Of a DNA stretch of 64,000 nucleotides, positions 42,701 to 58,900 are shown in pieces; the first letter of the stretch is position 1, and every line of letters begins with the position of its first letter. The position numbers were made by a program, and so were the translations under genes. A model generated the notes under the pieces. That model made no database searches. It was not told the origin of the DNA and was given only the letters and a program-made list of their open reading frames with translations. Origin of the DNA: Paracyclopina nana (taxonomy: Eukaryota; Arthropoda; Copepoda; Cyclopoida; Cyclopettidae); NCBI GenBank assembly GCA_019096065.1, contig JAGUCH010000004.1, forward strand, positions 4,836,001 to 4,900,000, given 5' to 3'.

Positions 42701-45700
42701 AGCATCGTCATCAAGAATATTTTTGCTGCTGCCACCGCCTTTCTTGTCCTCTTCTTGGTCGTCCAAAAAGCCCGCCTCTTTCTTGATACGACGGATAGAA
42801 AAGGAGTTTTCATTATCGTCGTCGTCGTCGTCATCAAAGAGAGCCGCAGCCAATTCGTCCGGGTCCATGTTATCCTCATCGACGGGCTTTTCGGAAACTT
42901 TCGAATCTGCGGTAGTAGCAGTTTGCTTAGAGGACGAGATAAGCTGTAGAAATTCACTGATGACTCCCCAGTAGCCATCCTCTCTCATGAAAGCGATTTC
43001 ATCTCGATTCTTCGGGTTCCAATCTAGGCCACAAATTTCAGTATCCTTGTCACACTTTGCTTCATGAAACTTCTCCTTGGTCTCGAGGCTCCAAAACACG
43101 AGTTTGCCCTTAGAAGTTCCACCCACAATGTAGCTGCCACATGGAGAAAAGGCAGTTGAGGTGAAAATGTCCTCAATAGATTCTGATTTCAGAACGCAGC
43201 TTTCCTCCCATCCAGTTTCCTTGCACATGACTTTAATGCAAGAGAAAGTGGGAATGGCAAACTTGTCTCCCTTGGGATGCCAAGCGACCAATCCTGATGA
43301 CTTTGATCTGCACACATCGTTAGCGGTGGGCCAACAATTAGGAATTGTTTTTACGCAAGATTCAGCATTTATGTTCCACAATTTCACTGATCCATCACAA
43401 GATGAAGAAAGCACAAAGTCGCCCGTAGGATTGAGAGCTACGCACAGAATGGGAGCAGAGTGGCCTTCAAACCTTTTGCTTGAGAAATTTTCACTATTGA
43501 CCAGCTGTATGGTCATGTCAGCAGATCCAGCCAAAATGTGCGTGCCATCTTTGGACGCATCCACGCAAGTGGGCTCGGCGGTGAACTTGATCAAAACTTT
43601 GTCGCGCGTAGCTTCATCATTTTTGAACACGAAACTCACAACATCATTGCAGTACTTAGCACCCGGTGGCACTTTGGGAGCCACGTAAATTCGCCCCTTA
43701 TCATCTGCCACGGCACCAAGAATTTCATCACCAGCAGTGATAGGCTCCAAATCAAGGAGCTCCTCGTCACGAATCCCACCGTAAACTCGTATATCTCCAT
43801 CAGGTCCACCCGTGAGAATCCTTGATGCGTCAGGGAAATATTTGACGCATCCTCGTCCTTGCGAGTGCGCGTAGCGTTCCTTGATGCTCATCTGAAATTT
43901 AAAAAAAATTTATTACTATAGCTCATCCTTTAAAGGTAATAATCTTGTACTGGCATATGTAATAATTCTACACTTTACAAATTTGTTGTCATAAGAAGGT
44001 GGGCACGATTTATGCCTCGCCTCTAATTCGTCGAGCAAGGTGCATGTCTTTTGGCATTATTGTCACTCTACGAGCGTGAATAGAGCATAATACACAGTCT
44101 TCAAATAACTGCACGAGGTAAGCTTCAGCAGCCTCTTGAAGCGCCATCAGTGCACTAGATTGAAATCGCATTCCTACTGAGGATGTCGATTGGGCAATTT
44201 CCTTGATTAGCCTCGAAAATGGCAACCGAGGGATCAATAAGTCTGTCGACTTTTGGTACGCTCTGATTTCTCGCAGAGCAACAGTTCCAGGTCGATATCG
44301 TCGTTTGGGAGTTTGACCACCCACATTTTTCTTTTGGTGAACTGGTAATTTGACTCGAGGCGTTTTCAGTCCAATTGAGCTTCTGGCTGGCTCTTTGGTG
44401 GCCGCTGGAAGTGTCTTTCTTGCCACGTGGGCAGTATTCTTGGGAGATTTTCGCACTGAGGGCTGCTGCGCTGACGAGGAGGCAACGGTCAAAAATCCCG
44501 AGGACTCGGAAGCGTCAGATTCAGATGATGTGTCGCTGGTTGCGTTTGACGGTGGCTGTGCTGGCTTTGGTGGCGTTTTTTTGTTTGCTGGTAACTTTTT
44601 CTTCCCTAGAACTTTTCTCGCTTTCGGGTCAGGCGTCCGCCCTGGCGTTTGATTCCGATCTTTTTGCGTACGAGCCATTTTTCAAATAGCGTCAAACTTC
44701 AGTCAACCACTCACATCTAAAATCTAAACACAAACAGACTTTTCCCGCTTGTACAGTTTATTATTGATGTTGGCGGCAGCGCTTGGCTTGAAACACGTCA
44801 ATTATTGCCTAAAAGTGCCAAAACATTGATTCCGACAATCTATTATGTTCACTCGCGCAACCTTGATCGAATTTAGCGTACAATGAGTAGAAAGCAAACG
44901 AGGTTTCGTGGCCGAGGGACCATAGCTATTGATTTGAGTCCCAACTTAATTTAATCATTATGGGGAAAAGTCATTGCAATATTATTGATATAGGCAAGGG
45001 ATTCATCGTGTAATCAAAAACAATGGGTGACTTCACTAAAGTTGCACCCTGAGACTGTAATAGCTTGAAGAGCACTCCTCGGGTATTTCATAGACTTGCA
45101 TATTTTCCATGAGTTCGAGGCCTCGTCGTAGACTTCAACGCACTTCGTCACTCCTTCTCCGTCGTAACCACCCATAGCATACAATTTATCACCGGCAACG
45201 GTGAGTCCAAAGTTGGACCGAGGCAAATTAAGCTCGCCAGCCATTTCCCAAGAGTTGGATGTACTTGGATCCAGGAATTCTACACTCTTGAGCCGGTTGA
45301 TCCCATCATAACCGCCAACAACATAGATTTTTCCATGATAAACCGCTGCATTGACTCCAGATCTGCGAACCTGTAAAGTAGGTCCAAATCGCCATATGTT
45401 CGTGGCTGGATCGAAGATTTCGACGCTGTCGTGAATTTGATCTCCATTGAATCCTCCAATGACATATAGGGTACTATTTATGGCTACTGCACAGGCATCA
45501 GATCTGATTTCGATCATTTGAGGCAAAGCATCCCAGGTGTCTGTGTCCGGATCATAAACCTCCGCAGTTCTGAATCGGTGATGACCATTGAAGCCACCAA
45601 AAGCAAATATTTTTCCATTGAGGACAGTTGAAGATAGGTAGCATCGTTCTTGAAACATGGAACTTTTTTCTACCATAATCCCAGTTAGAGGGTCGTAAGC

Positions 45701-47522
45701 AATCATACTTTTGCGATAGTCCCTCTCATCGTCGCCTCTCGAGTATCCACCAAAAACGAACAATTTCCCACTGACAATCTGGGTTGCATGATATGCCAGC
45801 CTCAAATGGCCACCGATGAGGGATGTCTTCAGTTGTACCCATTTGCCAGAATTGATATTTAAGGCTTCTACCATTGTGCAAGGACCTCCCTCACTCCACC
45901 CTTTGATTGCAAGTACAATTTCCCATGGGACTCTAACTTCATGGAGGCTTTTCATACGTTTTCCTTTCGCCCCTGTCAGTTTGTCAAAATAGTCACTTGA
46001 CATTTTGATTAAGCTGTCCACCTCTTTGTTACCCATACAGGTGACTTTCTCGCGAAAAATTGTCTCATCCATTATGGTGAACCTAACATGCTTAAAGAGA
46101 TTGATTCTTTTTGGATCGACCTGTTCAGTCCAATGCTTGATGATTTGGAAAAGCGCATCTTCTTTTACATTTAGAAGGTCATCGGCTAAAAGTTCGTCCA
46201 ATTCTTCGGCAGTGAATTTAGCAAAATGGTTCGATTTGGCATCAAGCAATTGAAAGTTTTCCAGGATATAACGTCTCAAAGAGTGTATCGCAGATCCACA
46301 GCAGAATTTCAATGCGGTTTGGTAATAGTCCCCGGCTCTCTCTGGGTAATTCAAGCCAAGCATGTAATTTTGGGCTCTTTGTCTAAGGACATCCAATCCA
46401 TATTCTTTGGCTACCCATATAAGATCCTGATAGTTTTGCTCAGTGAAACGGGCATCATAGGTATAAGTGTAATCAAGAATATCGTCAATCAAAGTTTCGC
46501 CTTTGTCAAGAATAGCCTGTGGCAAAGGTACCAGGTCCTCAGAAACATAAGCCAAAGAAAGGTAGTGGTCCTCATAAGAATTGTGAATTGGATTCCTTTC
46601 GATGGCTGCCCGTATTTTAGAGGTTATTTGGAGCATCGTAGGCCTTACTTCAAAGGTTTTATTGCAAAAGCAGATGCTGCTGCACCTTTTCTTGCTCCTA
46701 ATTTGAATCCTATTCATCTTAAAAAGTTTAAATGCCAAGCTGCCCGGGATTTTGTACGCCACTTAATTTGGCAAGAAATCAATTGTCACCTAGCAACAAT
46801 AAGATAATTAATCATGTCTGAACACATTAATATTTTTTTATAGTCTGGAAACATCTTTGTTTTTTCCGGGATGCTCAATGTGTGCACCAATGATGATCAA
46901 CTTGGATTTGTGCTCAGTCATGAGGTTGCCCACTCCTTACTAAACCATGCAGTAAGTCAATTTTAGCGCACAACTTGTTCCATCATTATTAGTGACCATT
47001 TCATAGGCAGAAAATCTGAGCTACATCAATCTACTAAGTGGACTCATGATCATTCCTTTGGCTGTTGCTTGGGCTTTCCTTCCTAATGATGGAATAGCTT
47101 TGGTGGCAGACTGGTTTTTCAACAAAGTTTCGACCATACTTTGGGAGTTACCGTTCGCAAGACACATGGAAACAGAAGCCGATGAAGTGGGGCTGAAGCT
47201 TGCGAGTAAGGCCTGCTTTGATGTGAGAGAAGCGCCAGTTTTCTGGGCTAAAATGCAAATTGTCTCAGAAATGTCGAACCAATTCGACCCTCCAGAGTTT
47301 TTGTCAACCCACCCAAGCCATGAATCCAGAGAGAAACATCTCGCACAATTGGTACCAGATGCACTGCAGCTAAGAACGAGCTGTGGATGTCACAGACTGG
47401 TGTCAGCCGATCCTGGATATCAATTGAAGATATTTATTGATGCCATGAGGAGGGAAGCAGCCAAACGACAAGCGGAAGCCCAGGCCAAAAAACCGCGCAT
47501 AGTCATCGTTCGAGGAGGATAA
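39758..47522 (+). CDS. OMA1: OMA1 mitochondrial inner-membrane zinc metalloprotease
   Basis: Six exons (39758-40001, 40060-40106, 40167-40259, 40316-40492, 46844-46951, 47007-47522) give 394 residues. The N-terminus is basic with a presequence-like [19 protein letters not shown]; exon 2 encodes a membrane segment ([16 protein letters not shown]). The peptidase M48 site is [10 protein letters not shown] (HExxH), with the third ligand Glu in [10 protein letters not shown] and the conserved [10 protein letters not shown] downstream. OMA1 cleaves OPA1 and other inner-membrane proteins under stress. Exon 4 ends NAFVLP and exon 5 begins [10 protein letters not shown] in matching phase 0, the same continuity seen in human OMA1, so the 6351-base intron between them is well supported. 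That intron holds three minus-strand genes. The start is one of three consecutive ATGs; OMA1 converges on HCCS, with 41 bases between stops. Confidence 0.93.
40509..43891 (-). CDS. WDHD1: WDHD1/AND-1 (Ctf4) replication adaptor
   Basis: Five exons (42236-43891, 41898-42179, 41059-41828, 40797-40999, 40509-40738) give 1046 residues. The N-terminus is a WD40 propeller (about 1-310) with repeats such as [15 protein letters not shown] and [15 protein letters not shown]. An acidic linker with a [10 protein letters not shown] run leads to the SepB/Ctf4-type beta-propeller (about 440-750). A charged helical region follows, and the last exon is HMG-box-like ([16 protein letters not shown]... then [17 protein letters not shown]). 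This is the WD40-SepB-HMG order of animal AND-1, which links the CMG helicase to polymerase alpha. In vertebrates AND-1 has also been linked to CENP-A assembly. The gene is nested in an OMA1 intron on the opposite strand; its stop is 16 bases from OMA1 exon 4, so its 3' UTR must run antisense into OMA1 exons. Confidence 0.94.
44010..44678 (-). CDS. CENPA: Centromeric histone H3 variant (CENP-A/cenH3)
   Basis: A single-exon ORF of 222 residues. The last ~95 residues are an H3 histone fold: [18 protein letters not shown] (alpha N), [33 protein letters not shown] (alpha 2) and [20 protein letters not shown]. The N-terminal tail is about 125 residues, against about 40 in canonical H3, has no H3 tail homology beyond MART, and is Lys/Pro/Ser-rich. 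Loop 1 ([13 protein letters not shown]) is one residue longer than in H3 (IAQDFKTDLRFQ). A long divergent tail plus a longer loop 1 is the usual signature of cenH3. It would form centromeric nucleosomes. It is intronless, 118 bases downstream of the WDHD1 start, on the same strand and in the same OMA1 intron. Confidence 0.9.
45014..46762 (-). CDS. Kelch-like protein, KLHL10-like, with diverged N-terminus
   Basis: An intronless ORF of 582 residues. The C-terminal half has six kelch repeats with the GG, YD and W pattern, for example [51 protein letters not shown] and [13 protein letters not shown]. The repeat spacing and wording ([22 protein letters not shown]) are closest to animal KLHL10, a testis-enriched Cullin-3 adaptor. 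The BACK domain is clear ([20 protein letters not shown]). The BTB region is poorly conserved: from about residue 40 it reads [20 protein letters not shown] and lacks the usual CDV and AHR-VLAA motifs. A 5' exon could exist, but no acceptor was evident, and the ORF starts only 81 bases from OMA1 exon 5 on the other strand. Cul3 binding by this protein is uncertain. Confidence 0.85.
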   Translation of the reverse strand: MAYKIPGSLAFKLFKMNRIQIRSKKRCSSICFCNKTFEVRPTMLQITSKIRAAIERNPIHNSYEDHYLSLAYVSEDLVPLPQAILDKGETLIDDILDYTYTYDARFTEQNYQDLIWVAKEYGLDVLRQRAQNYMLGLNYPERAGDYYQTALKFCCGSAIHSLRRYILENFQLLDAKSNHFAKFTAEELDELLADDLLNVKEDALFQIIKHWTEQVDPKRINLFKHVRFTIMDETIFREKVTCMGNKEVDSLIKMSSDYFDKLTGAKGKRMKSLHEVRVPWEIVLAIKGWSEGGPCTMVEALNINSGKWVQLKTSLIGGHLRLAYHATQIVSGKLFVFGGYSRGDDERDYRKSMIAYDPLTGIMVEKSSMFQERCYLSSTVLNGKIFAFGGFNGHHRFRTAEVYDPDTDTWDALPQMIEIRSDACAVAINSTLYVIGGFNGDQIHDSVEIFDPATNIWRFGPTLQVRRSGVNAAVYHGKIYVVGGYDGINRLKSVEFLDPSTSNSWEMAGELNLPRSNFGLTVAGDKLYAMGGYDGEGVTKCVEVYDEASNSWKICKSMKYPRSALQAITVSGCNFSEVTHCF

Positions 47523-47563: not shown

Positions 47564-48385
47564 TTAGTGTTCTACTTTTTGAGGCATCTGCACTTGGTCT
47601 TCGGGTCCCGCATACCTCCATCGCCACCACGCAACTTTCATTCGGTCCCACACTGCATCAAAAGAGTCAATGGCAGGGCGTACATCAAGTACAGCAAAGG
47701 TATGAGTGTTGGGATCGACTGGTCCGCAGTCGTAGTAGTCAATGACGTATCTGACTTCTCTCCCACATCTGTCGATGATCCAGTCATGCCTGTCAAAAGG
47801 CAGCTGATATCCCATCAAATTCCTAAACCGGGCTCTTGGAGAGAAGTCAGTCGCTTTTCCTCCAAAGCTCTTCAGCTTAGGGTTGCCGCACTCACGCGCA
47901 TGAAGAGCTTCCCATTTGAGCACTTCTTGCCAAGCGTGCTCGTTATTGATGTTATGAATCTTGATGATATGCTCCATGGTTTGGGGAGTCATATTCTGTG
48001 GCTCTTCTTTCCAGCGCCATCCTTTTCTGAGCATAGCATTCCAGAACATTTGAGGGGAAGGGTAGACCCAAGTCTCTTCAGTGCCAGCCTTGGGTATAGT
48101 TGACTTTTGACGCTCAATCGGTAGAGAAAAAGGCTGATCTGGCGAAGGCCTTTGGTTTGGAGGCGGCATCATGTTTCTTGGATCAATGTCCCCATGAGGA
48201 GCTGATGCTGCTGTGGCCGCATTAGAAGGACACTCAGATTGCCAAGTTTGTTGAGCAGTGTTATTCGCAGCATGCATAGGACACTCGGAGGGAATGCTCT
48301 CAACAACGGGAACTGTTGGTTTGTTATGCATCGGGCACTCCGACGGAATTTCGGAAGCACTTAAGGTTGAACCCGTGGCTCCCAT
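47564..48385 (-). CDS. HCCS: Holocytochrome c-type synthase (cytochrome c heme lyase)
   Basis: A single exon of 273 residues from the ATG at 48385 ([12 protein letters not shown]...). The frame extends upstream to 48463, but the shorter start matches the human protein. Two heme-regulatory Cys-Pro motifs are clear, both SECPMH, with a third, degraded copy SECPSN. The core shows [49 protein letters not shown] (with the His that ligates heme), [14 protein letters not shown] and [11 protein letters not shown], essentially as in human HCCS. It attaches heme covalently to cytochromes c and c1 in the intermembrane space. It is tail to tail with OMA1, another mitochondrial gene. Confidence 0.97.
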
Positions 48386-48652
48386 TTTGCTTGGTCGGCA
48401 AATACAACTGATAATCGCGAGGGCTGCCTTTCTCAAAAATGGCGTTTCGTAACGAAACTTCACTTGAGTAAGCCGAAATGTTTATTTACTTTGTCGGTAC
48501 TTAAATGCAATTTTATCACGCAACCGTTTAGCGGAACTTTTTCAAAACCAAATTCAAACCAATTACGCTTTTTCACGAGTTTATTAATATCTGCTTTCTT
48601 ATGTTGGATAGTTTGTCATACGCATTACAATACATTCCTTTTTGTACAAAAA

Positions 48653-51600
48653 TTATTCACGTCCGGTCACTTTCTTCTGGATCAATTCAGCTGCCTTAGA
48701 TATAACCTCGGATAGCTCTGCTACACTGAAATTTTCTAAAGCAGCCATCGTTTCAGATATGGACAGATCGAGCTTGTCTGTCTGGCAGTTAGCTTCTAAA
48801 ATGCTTGTTATCGTAGTTGAAATGCCTACTTCCGTATTTGACACGTCCTTTTGATGAGAAAAGTCCACCATCACTTTATCAGCAGTCATGGTTTCTGATG
48901 TAGAAACACTAGGACCAGCTTGTACTGCAGTCGTCGAAAATTCTTTCTCCTCAATGATAGCGCTGATTTCTTCTGGCTCCACTTCTTTGACCTGGTAACC
49001 TTCCTTGGCTGCCAAATCTACATGCTCCAACGATTCAGTGGGAGATGGAGATGGCCTTTCGTAAATCTCCTTCATGGCTTCCTCTTCTTCCTCGGGTGTA
49101 CATTCGTTGTCAATGACAGGGGCAGCCGTGGGGCTTTGCTCTTTCTGCGACCGCGACAAGAGCTCCTCATCAAGTTCACTAGAGGCTTCAGTTGTTACCT
49201 TTTTCTCTCGCTCTTTCCCCCTCTTGAGCCAATTTTTCTCGTATTTCCGCAAAGCTTCTTTGATGGTAAACAAGTTATTAGGCGGCTTGAGGGATTTGAT
49301 TGCATTAGCTTTAACAGCAGTGAGCTTACTCAAATCCCCAATTGTTTGAATGCCATTGTCCGACAAGCTCTTTTCTGCTGCCTTGTGCCACGTCTTGGTT
49401 GTCAGGTTATTCAATATGGTTGAGACAGGGTCATCGCAATCAACCAACGAAGGATAAATGCAATTGGGAGACACGTGCGACAATGGCGGAGTAGGTTCAT
49501 ATAGCCCCGCTGAATTTTCGCTCTCTTCTGAGCTGTTGATGTCGGTGGCTTCAAATTGGGTCTTGGACAAGTCCTTCGAAATAGGGCCCAAGAACATTTC
49601 TCTGTTGAAGCGCGTCTCCTGAAGCCTCTGCCTGGTAGCCTTTCCAGATGGGCATCTGGGAATGACCACTTGGTCGGAAACTGGCGGATCAGTAAACTGG
49701 ACCCGCCTTCGCTTCACGGGAGGCGCTTCATTGTGGTCTTTAGCATTCTCGGAAGTTGTGCTCTCAGAAGTAGCCGCGTCTGAATTTGAAGATCGCTTCA
49801 GAATTCCAGCTGAGGGGGAAGCATCGCAAGGAGAAGGAGCAAACTTTTGCCAAGGTTGGTTGCCAGATTGAGTTGGAGTGGTAACGCCTGGCTCTAGAGT
49901 TTTAGTGGGCAACTCTGGCCTAGGAGACATGAGCATAGGGTTGGGGCTGCTACTGAGCCCACCAGCTGATGTGGGTGACTCTGCTTTTGCCTTAGACATC
50001 TCAAGAAGGCGTGCACCACGTGAGCTAAAAACAGACGTGAGGACCTTGGCCTTAGCTGGTTTGAAAACAGGCAAAGGTGGCTTGATCAGGCCAGTGCTGT
50101 CATTTTTTTCGGAGTGAGGCTAAAATAAAAAAACGATTAATGAGCACCATAATAAATTGGAGCAAAATTAAGATATTACCTGAGGCAAGGAACCATCTTT
50201 TCCATTGACACCAACTGATTCTTGATCATCATGATTGCCCGTAAGTGACTCTTGCTGGACATCCATAGCCTCAACTGACTCTTGATGAACATCCATAGCC
50301 TCAACTGACTCCTGTTGCTCGCATATGATTTCAACAGAGTCTTGTTGCTCTGAACGTGCTGATGGAGGAAATTCAGAAGGAGGCATTTCGGATCGAGCAT
50401 CCAAGTCACCATCATGCGAAACATCTAAAGGGGTCGCCAATACGCTATTTGATGAGTCATTGAGATTTTCTGATGCCTCATCACTGTCCTTGATGGGCTC
50501 ATCGATTGCATTTTCGGCGGAAATTACCCAAGATTCAGAAACTGCTTTGCTGGGAGACGGAATTGCATTGGGTTTGATTTTATCAAATAGCCCTTGCAAA
50601 TGCTCTGGTGCGAGTGAACGCGCCGTTTTTCCATCTTTGTTTTCAATCATTGGATCAGCACCATTCTCGAGCAGGAACTGAACGCAATCTTGAGACATGA
50701 AAGCAATCGCATCATGCAGCGGAGTGGCCCCGTTATTAGCTGCTGCGTTAATTTCAGCACCATTCGATACTAACAGCTCAATTATGTCCTTGGCATGAGA
50801 TCCGACATGAGCAGCAGCTTCATGAAGCGGAGTCCAACCTGCATGATCCTTGACATTGATATCAGCACCACTTGCAACGAGAGTCTTCACCTTGTCAAAG
50901 TCACCTTTCTTTATTGCAACGTGCAATGGCGACTCTCCGTACTTGTTGGTCTTAGTTTTGGGTTTGATTTGGCCAGCTAATGGGCCTTCGTTCTCTTTGC
51001 CAGGCACATTGATGGTACTGGAAATGCTGTGCTTGAGCGCAGCCTTTCTAGTAGGTCGTTTGTCAGCTGGATCCGACCCTTCAATGACATTTTCCACAGT
51101 CTTAGACAATCCTGCAAAGCTGTGCCTCCTCCGCTTGCGACTCTTAGTGCTTTCCTCCTCCAAAGTTTGACTGCTCTCAATGATTTCATTGTCAATATCA
51201 AAACTGACCGGTGCAGTTTGAACAGGCTCAAGTATGAGCGGAACTTCTTTGACAACCTTGACGGGGGAATGGGTACTCATTTTCATTTGATTTGGAGAAA
51301 GCTGTAGAATGTGAACTTTGGTTTGCGAAGTTAACTGAGCACTTAATGCAGTTATAGAGGAATCAGGCACAACCTTAGCAACGTCATCATCGTTAGTGTC
51401 AATGCCATTTTCGTCTGGAGTGCCATCAGTCAGGAGTGGCGATACAGACCGTTTTCTTTTCTTGCTTCCATTCTCCAACAAAATGGGCGTAGCATCAACC
51501 AAGGTTGATTTGGCTTTCTTTGGAGGTCGTCCTCTCCTTTTCTTAGGTTGCGAGTCTTCTTCTACAGGCTGAGAGGACAAAACTTCGACTTCCGAACTCA

Positions 51601-54600
51601 CGGTATCAATTTGTCCCTGGTTTTCTCCAAGGGTTTTCGTCACTCTACCTCTCTTTTGACGCTTAACCTTTGATTGTTCCGCTTCAAGCAATTTTTTGGG
51701 CTTACGGCCCTTTCGACGAGGCCTGCTTTGGTTGGCCTCTTCGTCATCCTGGCTATCTGTGTCTGTATTTTCAGGAGCGCTATGACGTTCACCATCTGGC
51801 TGGCTGTTGATATTAACAATAAGCACATCACTATCTTTGGGCTCTTCAGCCGGAGTTACTACGACGGGAGGAGGGACTTCTGGTTGACTGGAAGATGTGG
51901 CATCAATGATGCTCACTGAATTTTGCGAATGAAACATTGCTGAGAGAGATGTAGAGTCGTCTCGGGATAGCTCTGAGTACAACGCAGGAATGTCATCTTT
52001 GCGCTGTCTCATGACCTCTTTCTGATGCTCGGTCAATATTCGCTTTTTGCTCGCAGGGCTCGCGATTTTGACAAAATCTTGGCTGTTTTCCTCATCGATG
52101 CTCACCTTTGATGACTTGGCACTCTTTTTTGAAGGATTTGGCACTTGTTTTTTGTCCGGTGTGCTCGTTTTGGCAGCCACTTTATTGACGTGAGTCAGCT
52201 TTTGCTTGTCAAAAATATGCCCAAAAGTCACTGGAACTGCAAATTCAGGCGTGTCGCCATCACCAATGGCAGGCTGAGGTCCTTGTGGTGATGGGTCTAA
52301 GGCCTTCATTCTAAGGAAGTAGTACAAGAGACTGTCGATTCCCTTATCAACCTCGTCTTCCTTGAGGGTCGAACCAAAAGTGAGCTGCCACATTTGGCCC
52401 GTCTTTGATTTCACTTCACTATTAGGGTGACACAAAGCGGCCGTGATGAATGTCTTCATGTCATTTTGGAGGTCCACATCGAAAGGGCCGTCATATTGTG
52501 ACTGGAAACGAGTCACGACAACGTTATGTGCACTCTTCACAAGGGCCTCAAACTTGGGTCCGTGGCTTTCAAGCTGCTTGTTGCCAAACACGACTTCGAA
52601 CGTAGGACCCAAAAGCTTGAGTAAAGGCCGCTGAAGTCTTTGGCAAGAAATTTGGGTAAGCACCTGCAGAAGTTGTTGGGCCAAAGCCAGAGCAGCATTT
52701 TTGTCATCATATTGAGGCAAAAGTAGAAGCAGCTTCACTAATACGTCTAAAATTTTTTGAAGCACTCCAAGAGGATTGTCAGAGCACTCACCACTAATAG
52801 CAACCTGAGACTCTTGGCTCAATGACTGGAAGGGGATTGAGTTGAGCAGATTCTGCGACACTATCGTGGTTAGGCTTATCCATTCTTGGGACCTGAATGT
52901 TTGTTGTTCCTTCTCGTGCAGCAGCTTGAGAACCTCTTCAGCAAGCTTCTCCTCCATTTGTAGAGTAGTATAAGTTAGCAACAAGGGGGCTTTTTCATTG
53001 AACTTGTTCAGCGCTTCGACCCAGAGTTTCCAAAATAGTTTAGACGGAGAATTGAGGCAGTAGCGGATGGGGAAAAAGAGCAGCACTATTGACGAGTTGT
53101 AATGGGGCTTGTAGTGAATCGACACCTTGTGGATAACATCATTGAACTTGTCGACGTAAGCCACATAGGTTTGAGCATACATTTTCCACATGTTGCACAC
53201 AACACCATCTCTGGTATTGCTCGGTATGCTAGTCGCCCATCTATCTTTCAGAATTTCCATGCCATCTTCGAAAACAACCAATTGTCCAGGTTTGTGGAGA
53301 CAAGCGGCGTTCAAAAACCGCGACAGGAGACTGAAGAATTTGTCTTTGTTGGTGCTAGCAAAGTTATCCGAGAAAATGTGAGGCATCAGGGTCTGAATGT
53401 ACAAAAACTTGAGCATCACTCTGGCAGGGGTCTCACGGCCAACGTGCGGACCATTGAAGCTGACTCTTTCCCAAGTTGCGCTAACAGATAAAATAAAGTC
53501 GGGTAGCTTAGAAATTTGCTGCAAAACGAACAAAATGTGTTCGTTAGCCTCGGCGCAATTGAAAGCTTTCATGGCTCTCATCACATCGAGTGCCAATTCA
53601 AGGAAATATGAAATGGCATGAATGGTAGAGCCATGTTCAGGCGTGATACCATGCGCAGACTCAACGTTGATTTTGCAAACTGCCTTGAGAATTGCAGTGA
53701 AATTGTCATTTTCGCTCTTCTTTTTGATATGAAGGGTCTCAAGCAAGTCTGTCACAACTTTGATGATGGAATTGTAATGCACTCTGAAATGGTCAGCCTT
53801 GATTACACCTTGACTGAGGCTGTTGGCAACGGCTGTAATGTCGAGGTGAATGGCTTTCACCTCGTTGAGCCCACTAAAGAGTATTGCAGTGGCCTCAAGA
53901 CAAACAGCTCTAAGAGAATCGTACTTCTTAGCCGGACTTTGCGCCAAACCAGAAGTTGTCGCAACCGACGAGGAGTAGCAGAACTTGAGAAACGGTAAAA
54001 CAACAGTATCGACTTGCTTGTGTATGCTCAGGCCAAGAAGGCCAATGTAATGCCACCAGGTCAAAAACTTGAGTTTGACTTGCTCCTCATTTCTATTGCT
54101 TATTGATCCCTAAAATAATAAAGGAATGCAATGTTAAAAAAACTACCAGGAAAAGTCAAAGACAGTGTGTCACTTACAAGAAGAGGCCGAACTATTAGCC
54201 GAACACGCTTCGAGCTAGTCAGAACGGAAGGGTTGAGTGCAAAGTTGTCCATGAGTGTCATCCAGGATTGGTAAGCCTGCTTGCGAATGTCATTGCTTTG
54301 ATGCTTGAAGGCTCTTTCAACCACCTGTAGGAGGCTGTTCAATAACGTGGTGCCATCTCCTTGCAAGTGAAGTACTTCACCCAAGGCCTTTACAAGAGTG
54401 CACCACACAGAGAGACCTTCTTTGCTTCCACTTTCAACAGCCTTGAACATCCACTCCTTTAGCTCTCCTTTTGGCAAAATGAGCTGAGAAAAATCGCAGT
54501 TAGTAGCATCGAGCCCAGAGGGCAAAGCTTTGATTTTTCCAAGGAACTGGAGAGCTTGTTGTCGATGTTCGTCTACGCACAGCCGTTTTAGGATTTGCAA

Positions 54601-54705
54601 AAAAGCGGGGGTATCTTGTTCACTCATGATGACAAGGTCTTCTTTTTCCGAGCGGAGCAAAAGCTCAGACACCGTGAGGTCGTCCTCGGTCGCCATGCCT
54701 ACCAT
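48653..54705 (-). CDS. RIF1: RIF1 with an embedded ankyrin-repeat domain
   Basis: Three exons (54178-54705, 50180-54109, 48653-50119), phase 0 throughout, give about 1974 residues. Residues 1 to about 770 are the helical HEAT-type Rif1 region. Then come ILTEHQKEVMRQRKDDIPAL (about 867), a basic tract with GRKPKK and KKRRGRPPKK AT-hook-like motifs, and three ankyrin repeats (about 1230-1345): YGESPLHVAIKKGDFDKV, GWTPLHEAAAH and NGATPLHDAIAF. Glu/Gln/Ser-rich repeats (QQESVEAMDV) follow. The last exon has the PP1 docking pair GILK and RVQF (KRRRVQFTDPP) in the animal order, then the Rif1 C-terminal domain (SLVDCDDPVSTILNNLT, then GIQTIGDLSKLTAVKANAIK). RIF1 controls replication timing through PP1, and repair-pathway choice. 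The ankyrin repeats lie inside an uninterrupted exon. The start could also be the ATG at 54696. Confidence 0.94.
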
Positions 54706-55999
54706 GCACGAGGAGAGGGAGTTGTGTCAACACGACGTAAGTTTGTCTTCTACGCCTTTTTTCCAGCGTCGCCGTTGAGGACCAAGCAACAGCTAATGTC
54801 GATAAAGAGAGAAGCATTAAATTTCTTTGCTTAGGGAGCGCGCGCAGTCAATGCTTACGTTCCCGCCATCGTCGGCATTATATCAAGGTAGCGGCAAATA
54901 GATTTATAAGATATGGTGCATCACAAGACATTCTTACCTCTTTTAAAATAGGTCAAAGGAAAGGAAAAAATTTGGTCCAAGTGATTTGACGAGAAAATTC
55001 GTGCCCACTCTTATTGTTTCGTGGAGCAAAAAATCCGCGAAAGAGAAGGGTGTTCGTATTGTTGATGTTGATTCTGGCGCTAAACTGCTATGTTATTGAA
55101 AACTTTAACGATGCTTCGGAAATTAGGTCGAGCCGAAAATGTTACGCGTCGCATTGATGATATTTTCAGAAAAGTTAGCGAAAATGAAAACTTATCACGA
55201 GCAATTTAGCTGGTATTAAAATTTTTTTCACCACTTCTTATCTAAAAGAAGCAATAATGAAGCAAGAAATCGACGAGAATTTTTTTACCAGAGCCTTTTC
55301 TTAATGAGTCGTTTCATCGCTTTTTACTGAGAGGACAGCGTTATTTTGTGATTCAAAAATCTTGGTAGCATGAATGATTTCAAATTACGCCAAATTCGTA
55401 CCCAGCAATTTTGATACGGCCTGTAAAGATTGCTGAGACCTGAATAGTGAATAAAAACTAAAAAGTAAAAACACCTTGTTGATGCTTTGAGCTTGGCTTT
55501 GAGTTGAAGTTGAAGGCTTGAAAATTGACTGTATTCTTGAGTTTAAGTCAATCCAATGTTCCCGGAGCCAATTTTGAAAATGTCATGCCAAAATTAGCTA
55601 AAGAAGCAATTGAACCGCTTGAGTCAGAATGCGCTCCAACTTCTGCTGGTAAGTACAAATTTCAAAGTTCAAAGCATTAAGTTGAGACTTAAAGACTTTC
55701 TGATAATGGCTGTCTCAAGAGTGTAGCATAGTGAGTGAAAGTCAAGTCCGCCTATGTCAAACAGTTCAATACAAATCAATATTCCAACCTTAAGCGCAAA
55801 CAAATCAACTGATGGATAGGGCAAATAGACTCTATTGCATTAATGACATATCCTTCTCAAAACTAGGCCATACAAGGGAGACTCGTTTATTATTAATGGT
55901 ATTGCAGAAACTTTCCCTTTAAAAACACATGAGCTTCAATTTGAGTAAGCTTTACAATTATTGGAGTTAATCAAAGATGAGAGTCGAAATGCATTGGAC
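54706..55999. other. Intergenic region with one possible orphan exon
   Basis: Between the RIF1 start and the beta-catenin stop. On the plus strand, 55544-55649 reads open between a TTTAAG acceptor and a GTAAGT donor (containing MPKLAKEAIEPLESECAPTS), but no partner exons were found, so it is not called a gene. The rest is AT-rich with no recognisable content. Confidence 0.35.
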
Positions 56000-58900
56000 T
56001 TACAAGTCTGTATCGAACCATGCTTGATTGCTATTTTTATGCTGGTTATTGGGCAAATCATTATTTGCTAAAGGAGGTTGGTGTAAGCTGTAATAGGTAT
56101 TTTCATTATCACTAGTGGGTTCGTATTGACTGCTGCGTCCCGAGTTGTTGATATCCAGGCCCTGCAATGATTCTATTGGAATCCCATCATATCCTGAAAA
56201 GAAAATATAAAAGTCATTTTTAAAATGCATACCTTGACTTCATACTTTTAAGCCTATTATTAGTTTTGCAAACCTTTAGTTAACCAAGCAAACAAATAGT
56301 TACCCAAAACAAACAAAATATACCTTGGAAATACACCATTGGATAGTCATAGTAGCCATAATCTTAATCAAAAGCATAAAGAAATATAAAAAATGTCTCA
56401 AGAGCATATTTTGGAGATGAAGTTTACCTCCTGAATGACCATAGCTAAGAGATCCATTTAGTGACTCCAGTTCAAAAAGACCCTATTTTTGAACAAAAAT
56501 AAAGAAAAATAAAAATGAAGTGAAGATGAAGAAGATGGAAATAACAAAATCAGTAGAAAAGAAGAAAAGTAAAATACAAATATATGTGAAAAATTGCATA
56601 AAAAAGTGTTACCTGCAAATCTGGAGGTGGAACATCTCCATTCCACAATTGTTGATGTATGTCCCGTTGGTACAAAGTGCTTCGGAGCTCTTGAGAGAGC
56701 CTCTTGGTGTACTCACCCCCTTTGTCACTTGACATCCTGAACAAAACTGCAGCTGCATATGTTGCTGAAAGATAGCAAATTGATTTTCATGTTAGGAAGT
56801 ATTTACTTATAATATGGCTTACCAACTCCTTCATTTCTTGAGTGCAATAATTCTGTCAGTGGCGCAGTTGCACCTTCACTTTCAATTGCAACAGCACCTT
56901 CCTTGTCAGCAGCAAGCTCGCACAGAACCCCAGCAGCCACTCTCTGTATGTTTTCAATCTCATTGTACAAAAGCTGTACAAAGATTGGAATTACTGAGAG
57001 ACCTCTGATTATTGTGCGATTATGGAAATCTCTGCCCAAAATGTGCAACGCTCCAACAGTTCCTTCTACAATTTCTTCCATTCTTACTCCATCAGCATAA
57101 GATCCGGCTGCCTGACCCCTGCTTGTTCTCTGAAAAATATTTTCATTTTATATAAAGATTCCTTAATTGATATGATATTGCATACCCCTTCAATGTCCTG
57201 GAAAGCTCTTATGAGCAAGTGAACCAGTCTTGGAATTGTTCCATTTTCTCTCAGAGGGGCTTCATTGGCAGGACAAAGAGCTAGGTTTCTTATGAGTCCA
57301 ATGACTGCTTTGACTAAAGGCCACCTTGAGGGTGGGTGCAAAAGTCTAGCGATTGTTGCCACTCCTCCTTGGAGTCTCACTGCATTTTGTGCAACCTCAC
57401 AATCAGGGTGTCTTGAGGTGAGATGTCTGACAAAATTTGTAAAATGAATTTCCTGGTCTCAAATAAAATAACTTCAAATTACCGTAATGCACAAACTGCT
57501 GGCTCTGTAATTTCCTCTCGGTCACCAGCTGCAATTATTGTTCCAACCAAGGCCTCAATGCCTCCAAATTGGCAAACAATTATCTTATTCTTTTGGTTGT
57601 TGCAAGTCAAATTAGAAAGAATTCCTGCAGCGCAAGTGACAATATTCACATCATTGCTTCCAAGAAGGCCAACAAGACCTTGCATCAAATGTTCCATATT
57701 GTCAAGTTTGGTTCCAGCATCAGACAAGTTTCTCAAAGTCCATAAGCAGTTTTGAACCAACCTTGTGCTTGGATGATTCAAATGTATTGATAGAGCCTGC
57801 ATGCCTCCAGCATCGACAATAGCTGGCTTGTTGCTTGAGCACACAGACAAGACTAAAAGCAGCCATTAATATTTTATAAAGGTTTATTAACTTCATTAAA
57901 AATTGTTTACCTTTCAATACTCTTGATGTGGTCCACAAGAGCTTTTCATAATCATAGGATCTCATGATCCTCACCAATTCTAATGGGCCCTGGCTTGCTA
58001 GGATTATCAGTTTTGATTCTTGATTTCCATAGGCCATAATTTGTAGACAATCTGTCACGATAGCCAAAAATTTGACGTTGTTCCTCTGCAGCAGAGCCAC
58101 CATTTTTGGGATTCCACCCGCCAAGCGAACCACATTCTTTGATCCTTCCTGATGCAATAGCAAATTGTGCAGAGTTGTAATTGTGTAGAATAGAACACTT
58201 TCGACAGGAGATGACAGGAGCTTGATCAGGGCATTAATACCACCAGATTTAAAAATTGCAATCAATCCTGAAATATAGAGAATTTTTAAATAATACAGCC
58301 ACTTCATGCTAAAATATATTCTAATTTTGATCCACCTTGGCGATGGTGGCTCAAGTTGTGCAAAGTTCCAACTGCCCCCTTGGTTGACTCTAGGTCTGCT
58401 GGGTTTGATAGAGCCTTCACCAATGCTTGAATCATTTGAGGTGAACTCATTATTGCATGTCTTGATGCTTCCTTTTTGCTCAATTGATGAACCATCATCG
58501 CAGCTTGCGAAACAACCACTTGATCCTCATCATTAAGGAGCTTGATGAGCTCTGGAATTGCCCGTGTAGCCAAGTCAGCATCATCTTGATAGTTGATCAA
58601 ATTGACAACTGCATGCTTGAGCATTTGGCTGGGCTCAGCCAATCTTTGCACTGCAGTTGGTTGAGAAGGGTCTAGCTGAGTTGATGGAATCTCGATGCCT
58701 TCCTCCAGGGTCTCAGGAAACATTGCAGCCCTGACTCTCTGTGATCTTGTTTGGTTCAGTTGCTGGTTCATGTCTGTCCAAAGATAGATACTGTAAAGCT
58801 ACCGAGTGCCTACTTTAATATATATTTATTAATTAACCTACCTGCCATCTCTTTCTTAGAGTATCCTGCATTAAACGATTTCTCCATGGCGGAATTTGAG

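Follow-up and report, generated by a model that had tools for sequence, protein, structure and literature searches.

Our study concerns the RIF1 gene of the copepod Paracyclopina nana, which carries an ankyrin repeat domain in the linker between its HEAT region and the module formed by its PP1-docking motifs and C-terminal domain. The gene lies on the minus strand at positions 54705-48653 of the window, by which we mean the whole stretch of 64,000 nucleotides analysed here (GenBank assembly GCA_019096065.1, contig JAGUCH010000004.1, positions 4,836,001 to 4,900,000), and its model was derived from the sequence alone. By the content and order of its conserved parts, the gene is a genuine RIF1 orthologue. 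As to function, we judge the case evenly balanced that its linker domain, which is of the type found in BARD1, SLF1 and ANKRD11, binds histone H4 tails unmethylated at Lys20 and thereby tethers RIF1 together with PP1.

The RIF1 gene and its ankyrin domain

The coding sequence consists of three exons which, joined in phase, encode 1,974 residues with a lone stop at the end. Exon 1 (54178..54705, minus strand, as are all RIF1 features given below) encodes residues 1-176, the start of the HEAT region, in which the Pfam family Rif1_N is matched at 40 bits against a cut-off of 23. Exon 2 (50180..54109), the middle exon of 3.9 kb, is open along its whole length and in phase with both neighbours; it encodes residues 177-1486, comprising the HEAT repeats, the DIPALY motif, a poorly conserved linker and the ankyrin domain. 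Exon 3 (48653..50119), likewise in phase, encodes residues 1487-1974, with the PP1-docking motifs, the C-terminal domain and a tail that ends at the stop codon. The introns measure 68 nt (exons 1 and 2) and 60 nt (exons 2 and 3), both with GT-AG junctions. In the list of open reading frames at 54600-56900, up to the apparent 3' end of the beta-catenin-like gene, no further RIF1 exons are obvious upstream of 54705.

BLASTP with the window protein gave matches in 30 of 30 non-copepod RIF1s (from vertebrates, two molluscs and a sea urchin), with E values down to 1e-37 over residues 98-920. Among the seven whose alignments were printed, the HEAT region is matched in all and the PP1/C-terminal part in six (P0129 being the exception), in the same order. 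The conserved RIF1 motif ILTEHQKEVMRQRKDDIPALY (51977..52039, residues 867-887, ILTEHQKEV..DIPALY) has counterparts of the pattern DIPA[LM]Y in 20 of the 30 proteins. The PP1-docking pair GILK ... RVQF (49694..49807, residues 1591 and 1625) corresponds to [SG]ILK in 28 and to RV[SQT]F in 27 of them, and the C-terminal domain (49208..49462, residues about 1706-1790) is covered by the BLASTP matches to six of the seven printed RIF1s, which fall within window residues 1586-1804. The window protein therefore shares with vertebrate, mollusc and sea-urchin RIF1 the HEAT region, the LTxHQKEV..DIPAxY motif, SILK/RVxF docking and the C-terminal domain, in that order. It differs from them in its ankyrin domain, of which none of the 30 shows a sign by pattern or listed Pfam domain, and in an N-terminus about 150 residues shorter than that of vertebrate RIF1, window residue 98 pairing with residue 250 of frog RIF1 in BLASTP.

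The ankyrin domain itself occupies residues 1231-1345 (50603..50947) within exon 2, where it comprises repeats ANK1-3 plus a C-terminal cap and contains the H4-pocket residues E, D, W, E and D. This segment matches Pfam Ank_2 with an E value of 1.6e-24 and 86.7 bits, against a cut-off of 27.3. An AlphaFold2 model, computed from an input alignment of eight copepod-type sequences, has four helix pairs, that is three full repeats and the cap, with block means of the predicted local distance difference test (pLDDT) of 90-97 over model residues 21-130, a mean pLDDT of 87.8 and a predicted template modelling score of 0.81. Both the profile and the model thus contain the stacked helix-turn-helix repeats of an ankyrin domain. 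An earlier note on this DNA had described an in-frame fusion of three ankyrin repeats with RIF1 in one exon of 3.9 kb, followed in phase by an exon with GILK, RVQF and the C-terminal domain, and had proposed a profile search of the segment. The exon structure and the Ank_2 match bear out this fusion, and the count of repeats stands for the three canonical ones, with a fourth, capping repeat to be added in the model.

Compared with seven relatives, the domain is 43-73% identical to that of the window protein, the corresponding values being 28-47% for the linkers on either side, 21-46% for the HEAT region and 61-79% for the DIPALY segment (residues 845-905); the ankyrin domain is more conserved than its flanking linkers in all seven. 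Upstream of it stands an AT-hook-like core, RRGRPPKK (51515..51538), which contains the lone RGRP of the window protein, so that the AT-hook-like motifs claimed earlier in the plural reduce to one. Of the 11 copepod-type rows 8 have the RGRP core, as do 6 of the 30 other RIF1s, and a Pfam search gave no match for an AT-hook in the window RIF1.

The tail of the protein contains the motif ERPSPSPTE (residues 1840-1848, 49034-49060). Of the 11 copepod-type RIF1 rows it is found in 6, exactly those with PP1 motifs, while the remaining five stop earlier. The shorter PSPSPTE occurs in 0 of the 30 non-copepod RIF1s. From its sequence, ERPSPSPTE is possibly a phospho-docking site.

Distribution of the domain among RIF1 relatives

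In a search with the full protein, of which we examined the best 120 of 895 matches, at least eight RIF1 relatives are among the matches listed, namely seven predicted proteins (P0001-P0007) and a 'telomere-associated protein RIF1-like' of the salmon louse (P0009). Ankyrin sequence follows the DIPALY motif in all eight, with P0006 running off inside the domain, and PP1 motifs follow in the four that reach that far (P0001, P0003, P0007 and P0009). The salmon louse RIF1-like proteins (P0009, P0151) resemble the window protein in having the domain after DIPALY and before the PP1 motifs, and differ from it in a partly altered pocket and in lacking the RGRP core. Within the ankyrin domain of P0006 and P0121, the predicted protein runs off or comes to a stop, and this break looks like an intron.

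It is important to consider that the repeats of a query can themselves attract ankyrin proteins. A query restricted to the HEAT region (residues 90-930), from which ankyrin carriers gain no such advantage, returned 33 proteins, four of them copepod-type with ankyrin Pfam domains (P0001-P0003 and P0121) and 29 listing Rif1_N alone. With residues 840-910 as query, six proteins were found, five with ankyrin domains (two from the salmon louse) and one a fish RIF1 without. The ankyrin pattern G.[ST][PA]LH.A occurs in 0 of the 30 non-copepod RIF1s, and ankyrin is absent from their listed Pfam domains, in agreement with the earlier statement that vertebrate RIF1 has no such domain. No non-copepod arthropod RIF1 was among the matches listed in three protein searches, a result that reflects word-based sensitivity and, for the full-protein query, the listing of 120 of 895 matches, and not absence.

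The eight RIF1 segments cluster together, with support of 84/94, in a tree built from 48 ankyrin segments, and a single origin before the salmon louse split fits because of this grouping. The simplest account has one insertion of the domain, no later than the divergence of the salmon louse and the window's lineage. Since the salmon louse RIF1 carries it, the insertion is older than the window's lineage, and the idea of an ankyrin-RIF1 peculiar to one organism has to be given up, the public protein database already containing a RIF1-like protein of the salmon louse in which this domain is present. What is new is a form of RIF1 common to a lineage and not confined to a single species. Searches of one open-access library, judged mostly from listings, brought up no publication describing ankyrin repeats within RIF1; the word 'ankyrin' appears 0 times in the text of a paper that compares Rif1 among 92 organisms, and a text match to 'RIF1' in the available part of a salmon louse paper was discarded as an unrelated statistic.

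The histone H4 pocket and the proposed ligand

The ankyrin domain of BARD1, the partner of BRCA1, recognises freshly replicated chromatin; together with those of TONSL and SLF1, it is a reader of H4 unmethylated at Lys20 (H4K20me0). In the excerpted text on the SLF1-H4 crystal structure, E808, D838 and E847 hold the unmethylated Lys20, W842 and D881 hold His18 and N850 contacts Arg17; the central H4 cavity is reported to be conserved in TONSL and BARD1, and the contact of D874 with Arg19 lies outside it, in a variable loop (PMC11551741). When aligned, the six pocket positions read E, D, W, E, A and D in the window and identically in P0001-P0005, and the triad E, D, E that holds Lys20, with W and the last D, is complete in these six of the eight rows. 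The first E and the W of the pocket are invariant in 8/8 rows, and 30 of the 32 cells at the four acidic positions have an acidic residue, P0004 and P0005 being near-copies. With five of the six published H4 pocket residues present, this is, by its residues, a BARD1-type pocket in RIF1.

The motif D-x3-W-[ST]-P-L-H-E occurs exactly four times in the 92 Mb genome, in RIF1 and in the BARD1-, SLF1- and ANKRD11-like genes. A stricter one-frame pattern (E, D, W, E and LHD together; 52 loci) picks out just RIF1 and the ANKRD11-like gene; it misses the BARD1-like gene owing to a likely intron within repeat 1, and the SLF1-like gene owing to the replacement of LHD by LQE. In a control set of 112 ankyrin proteins, which is redundant and made up mostly of ankyrin-2 isoforms, none of 1,534 [ST]P[LI]H units has D-x3-W-x4-E; more weight is given here to the genome-wide count. 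The likeness to BARD1 that the earlier note had read from the repeat wording is thus supported by a rare motif, the pocket residues, the profile score and the fold. The window domain and that of BARD1 share three canonical repeats with a cap, the E, D, W, E, D pocket and a close fold; they differ in an alanine for the asparagine, in the repeat-2 loop and in setting, since the BARD1 domain sits before tandem BRCT domains and the window domain in the RIF1 linker. ANKRD11/ANKRD12 share the full pocket signature, and the ANKRD11-like domain has the best non-RIF1 profile score in the P. nana genome; these are, however, co-repressor proteins in which H4 binding is unproven. Constraining RIF1 to group with BARD1/ANKRD11 gave a tree slightly better than the free search (p 0.57). 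A human TONSL segment, used to look for a TONSL orthologue in the genome, placed the ANKRD11-like and SLF1-like genes first and RIF1 fourth.

Several observations weigh against an H4 reader of BARD1-type descent. First, the pocket asparagine (SLF1 N850, BARD1 N470) is an alanine in the window, and the excerpted text of a review calls this asparagine key in TONSL and BARD1 (N571/N470; PMC12066720). Its absence counts against an H4 reader for this reason, yet the position is also occupied by other residues in the genome's own BARD1-like (T) and SLF1-like (C) domains. Second, the pocket is altered in the salmon louse, where it reads E, C, W, D, K, E (D to C, E to D and D to E), and in P0007, where it reads E, D, W, N, R, D (E to N). 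Third, ANKRD11 has the whole pocket while its H4 binding is, in the available part of the source, a hypothesis only (PMC13385800), and the pocket signature is therefore no proof of H4 binding. Fourth, the RIF1 rows have a repeat-2 loop that exceeds the one of human BARD1 by 2-3 residues. As for descent, the grouping of RIF1 with BARD1/ANKRD11/SLF1 has support of 57/81 and a tankyrase grouping is not rejected (p 0.47), so the tree does not fix the donor of the domain. With segments cut alike, the profile scores are 70.5 for the SLF1-like domain, 70.9 for an unrelated ankyrin and 68.8 for tankyrase; the candidate lead of the SLF1-like domain over the other ankyrins of the genome was dropped, as it is tied with these two. 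Many designed ankyrin proteins are also as close in fold as BARD1: the 50 rows returned by Foldseek are mostly designed ankyrins, with BARD1 at rank 28, and fold likeness of this kind shows no function. Structures of TONSL and SLF1 are absent among the matches listed in two structural comparisons (50 rows each). Ranks in a PDB sequence search with the domain were set aside as a guide to kinship, since long ankyrins and designed proteins rank high there because repeat matches are summed.

These points bear on a realistic alternative, to which we give somewhat less than an even chance, namely that the domain is real and serves as a generic adaptor for a non-histone partner, for instance a peptide of some replication or repair protein. 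Most ankyrin domains bind proteins, and the fold is common to hundreds of ankyrin chains; the partly kept pocket of the salmon louse and P0007, the unrejected tankyrase grouping and the longer loop would agree with such a partner as well. What it leaves unexplained is that D-x3-W-[ST]PLHE is shared, genome-wide, only with the BARD1-, SLF1- and ANKRD11-like genes, and that the E and W of the pocket never vary. We consider it improbable that the domain has no specific ligand and instead stabilises RIF1 assemblies or spaces the linker, a role that would suit a large scaffold such as RIF1 and a position within a poorly conserved linker, given that the domain exceeds the linkers in conservation in every relative compared and mostly keeps its concave acidic residues. 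A gene-model artefact, with the ankyrin segment coming from another gene (fused neighbours or a wrong exon) or always being spliced out, is very unlikely and was rejected, as RIF1 sequence precedes the domain in the same exon and follows it in the next exon in phase, and as eight relatives, including the salmon louse database protein, keep the domain in place.

If the domain does read Lys20-unmethylated H4, its concave acidic face would bind the H4 tail, and RIF1, along with the PP1 docked at GILK/RVQF, would thereby be kept on freshly assembled nucleosomes, both behind forks and on sister chromatids. RIF1 would gain a chromatin address independent of 53BP1 and the same as that of its usual opponent BRCA1-BARD1, and the RGRP core upstream could add a DNA contact. 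The fuller proposal, about which we are somewhat more doubtful, is that copepod RIF1 reads new nucleosomes through a captured BARD1-type ankyrin domain, with PP1 docked on Lys20-unmethylated H4 and recruitment governed by replication status without 53BP1. Nascent DNA might be protected, RIF1-PP1 might be drawn away locally from unreplicated origins, or S/G2 repair might be biased, and the sequence cannot choose among these effects; that the domain binds histone tails and acts in timing or repair is what we infer.

How RIF1 reaches the proper chromatin at the proper moment is a question at the heart of replication timing and of the decision between end joining and recombination, and human RIF1 meets damaged chromatin via phospho-53BP1. 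Direct histone reading by this protein has a precedent in the HEAT repeats of human RIF1, which bind methylated H3K4 according to the available part of one paper (PMC9616806). In the excerpted text of a 2025 paper, it is speculated that RIF1-L bridges H4K20me0 and H4K20me2 chromatin via BRCA1 and 53BP1 (PMC12214830), and a natural RIF1 whose own chain has an apparent H4K20me0-type reader would offer a direct way to test this bridging idea. Ankyrin-RIF1 would also be a simple construct for asking what follows when RIF1-PP1 is sent to new chromatin. If H4 reading is true, RIF1, elsewhere the opponent of BRCA1-BARD1, would use BARD1's own chromatin address.

Partner genes and neighbouring features

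The P. nana genome encodes the partners on which an H4 reader of this kind would depend. It contains four copies of H4, 99% identical to human H4, and a KMT5A-like SET gene that matches two parts of a human segment at 59% and 62%. It also encodes a 53BP1-like protein with tudor and BRCT domains (locus L052:592-1929, minus strand), the tudor domain scoring 23 bits against a cut-off of 22 (26 bits in another scan), and both ends of the 53BP1-RIF1 axis thus seem to be present in the animal. A BARD1-like gene with ankyrin and BRCT domains lies on contig C2 (locus L062:3464-5432), its first ankyrin repeat being the one split by the likely intron. Given these 53BP1-like and BARD1-like genes, the ankyrin insertion would not be a simple replacement for a lost 53BP1 or BARD1.

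The gene next to RIF1 on its upstream side, in the same orientation and separated from it by a short intergenic gap, is an armadillo-repeat (beta-catenin-like) gene (56000-58526, minus strand). The other neighbours are ordinary: a cytochrome c heme lyase (47567-48481, minus strand), an M48 peptidase exon (47007-47519, plus strand) and a BACK/Kelch protein (45017-46762, minus strand). Further along the window, at 44013-44681 (minus strand), a 223-residue protein combines an H3-type histone fold (Pfam Histone, 1.1e-39) with a long basic N-terminal tail, and is a candidate CENP-A, the centromeric H3. TTAGG is the arthropod telomere-type repeat, and its presence, together with the RIF1 relatives, suggests a copepod. 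A pattern of five TTAGG units has 9,278 overlapping matches genome-wide, those among the matches listed lying in arrays towards both ends of contig C1.

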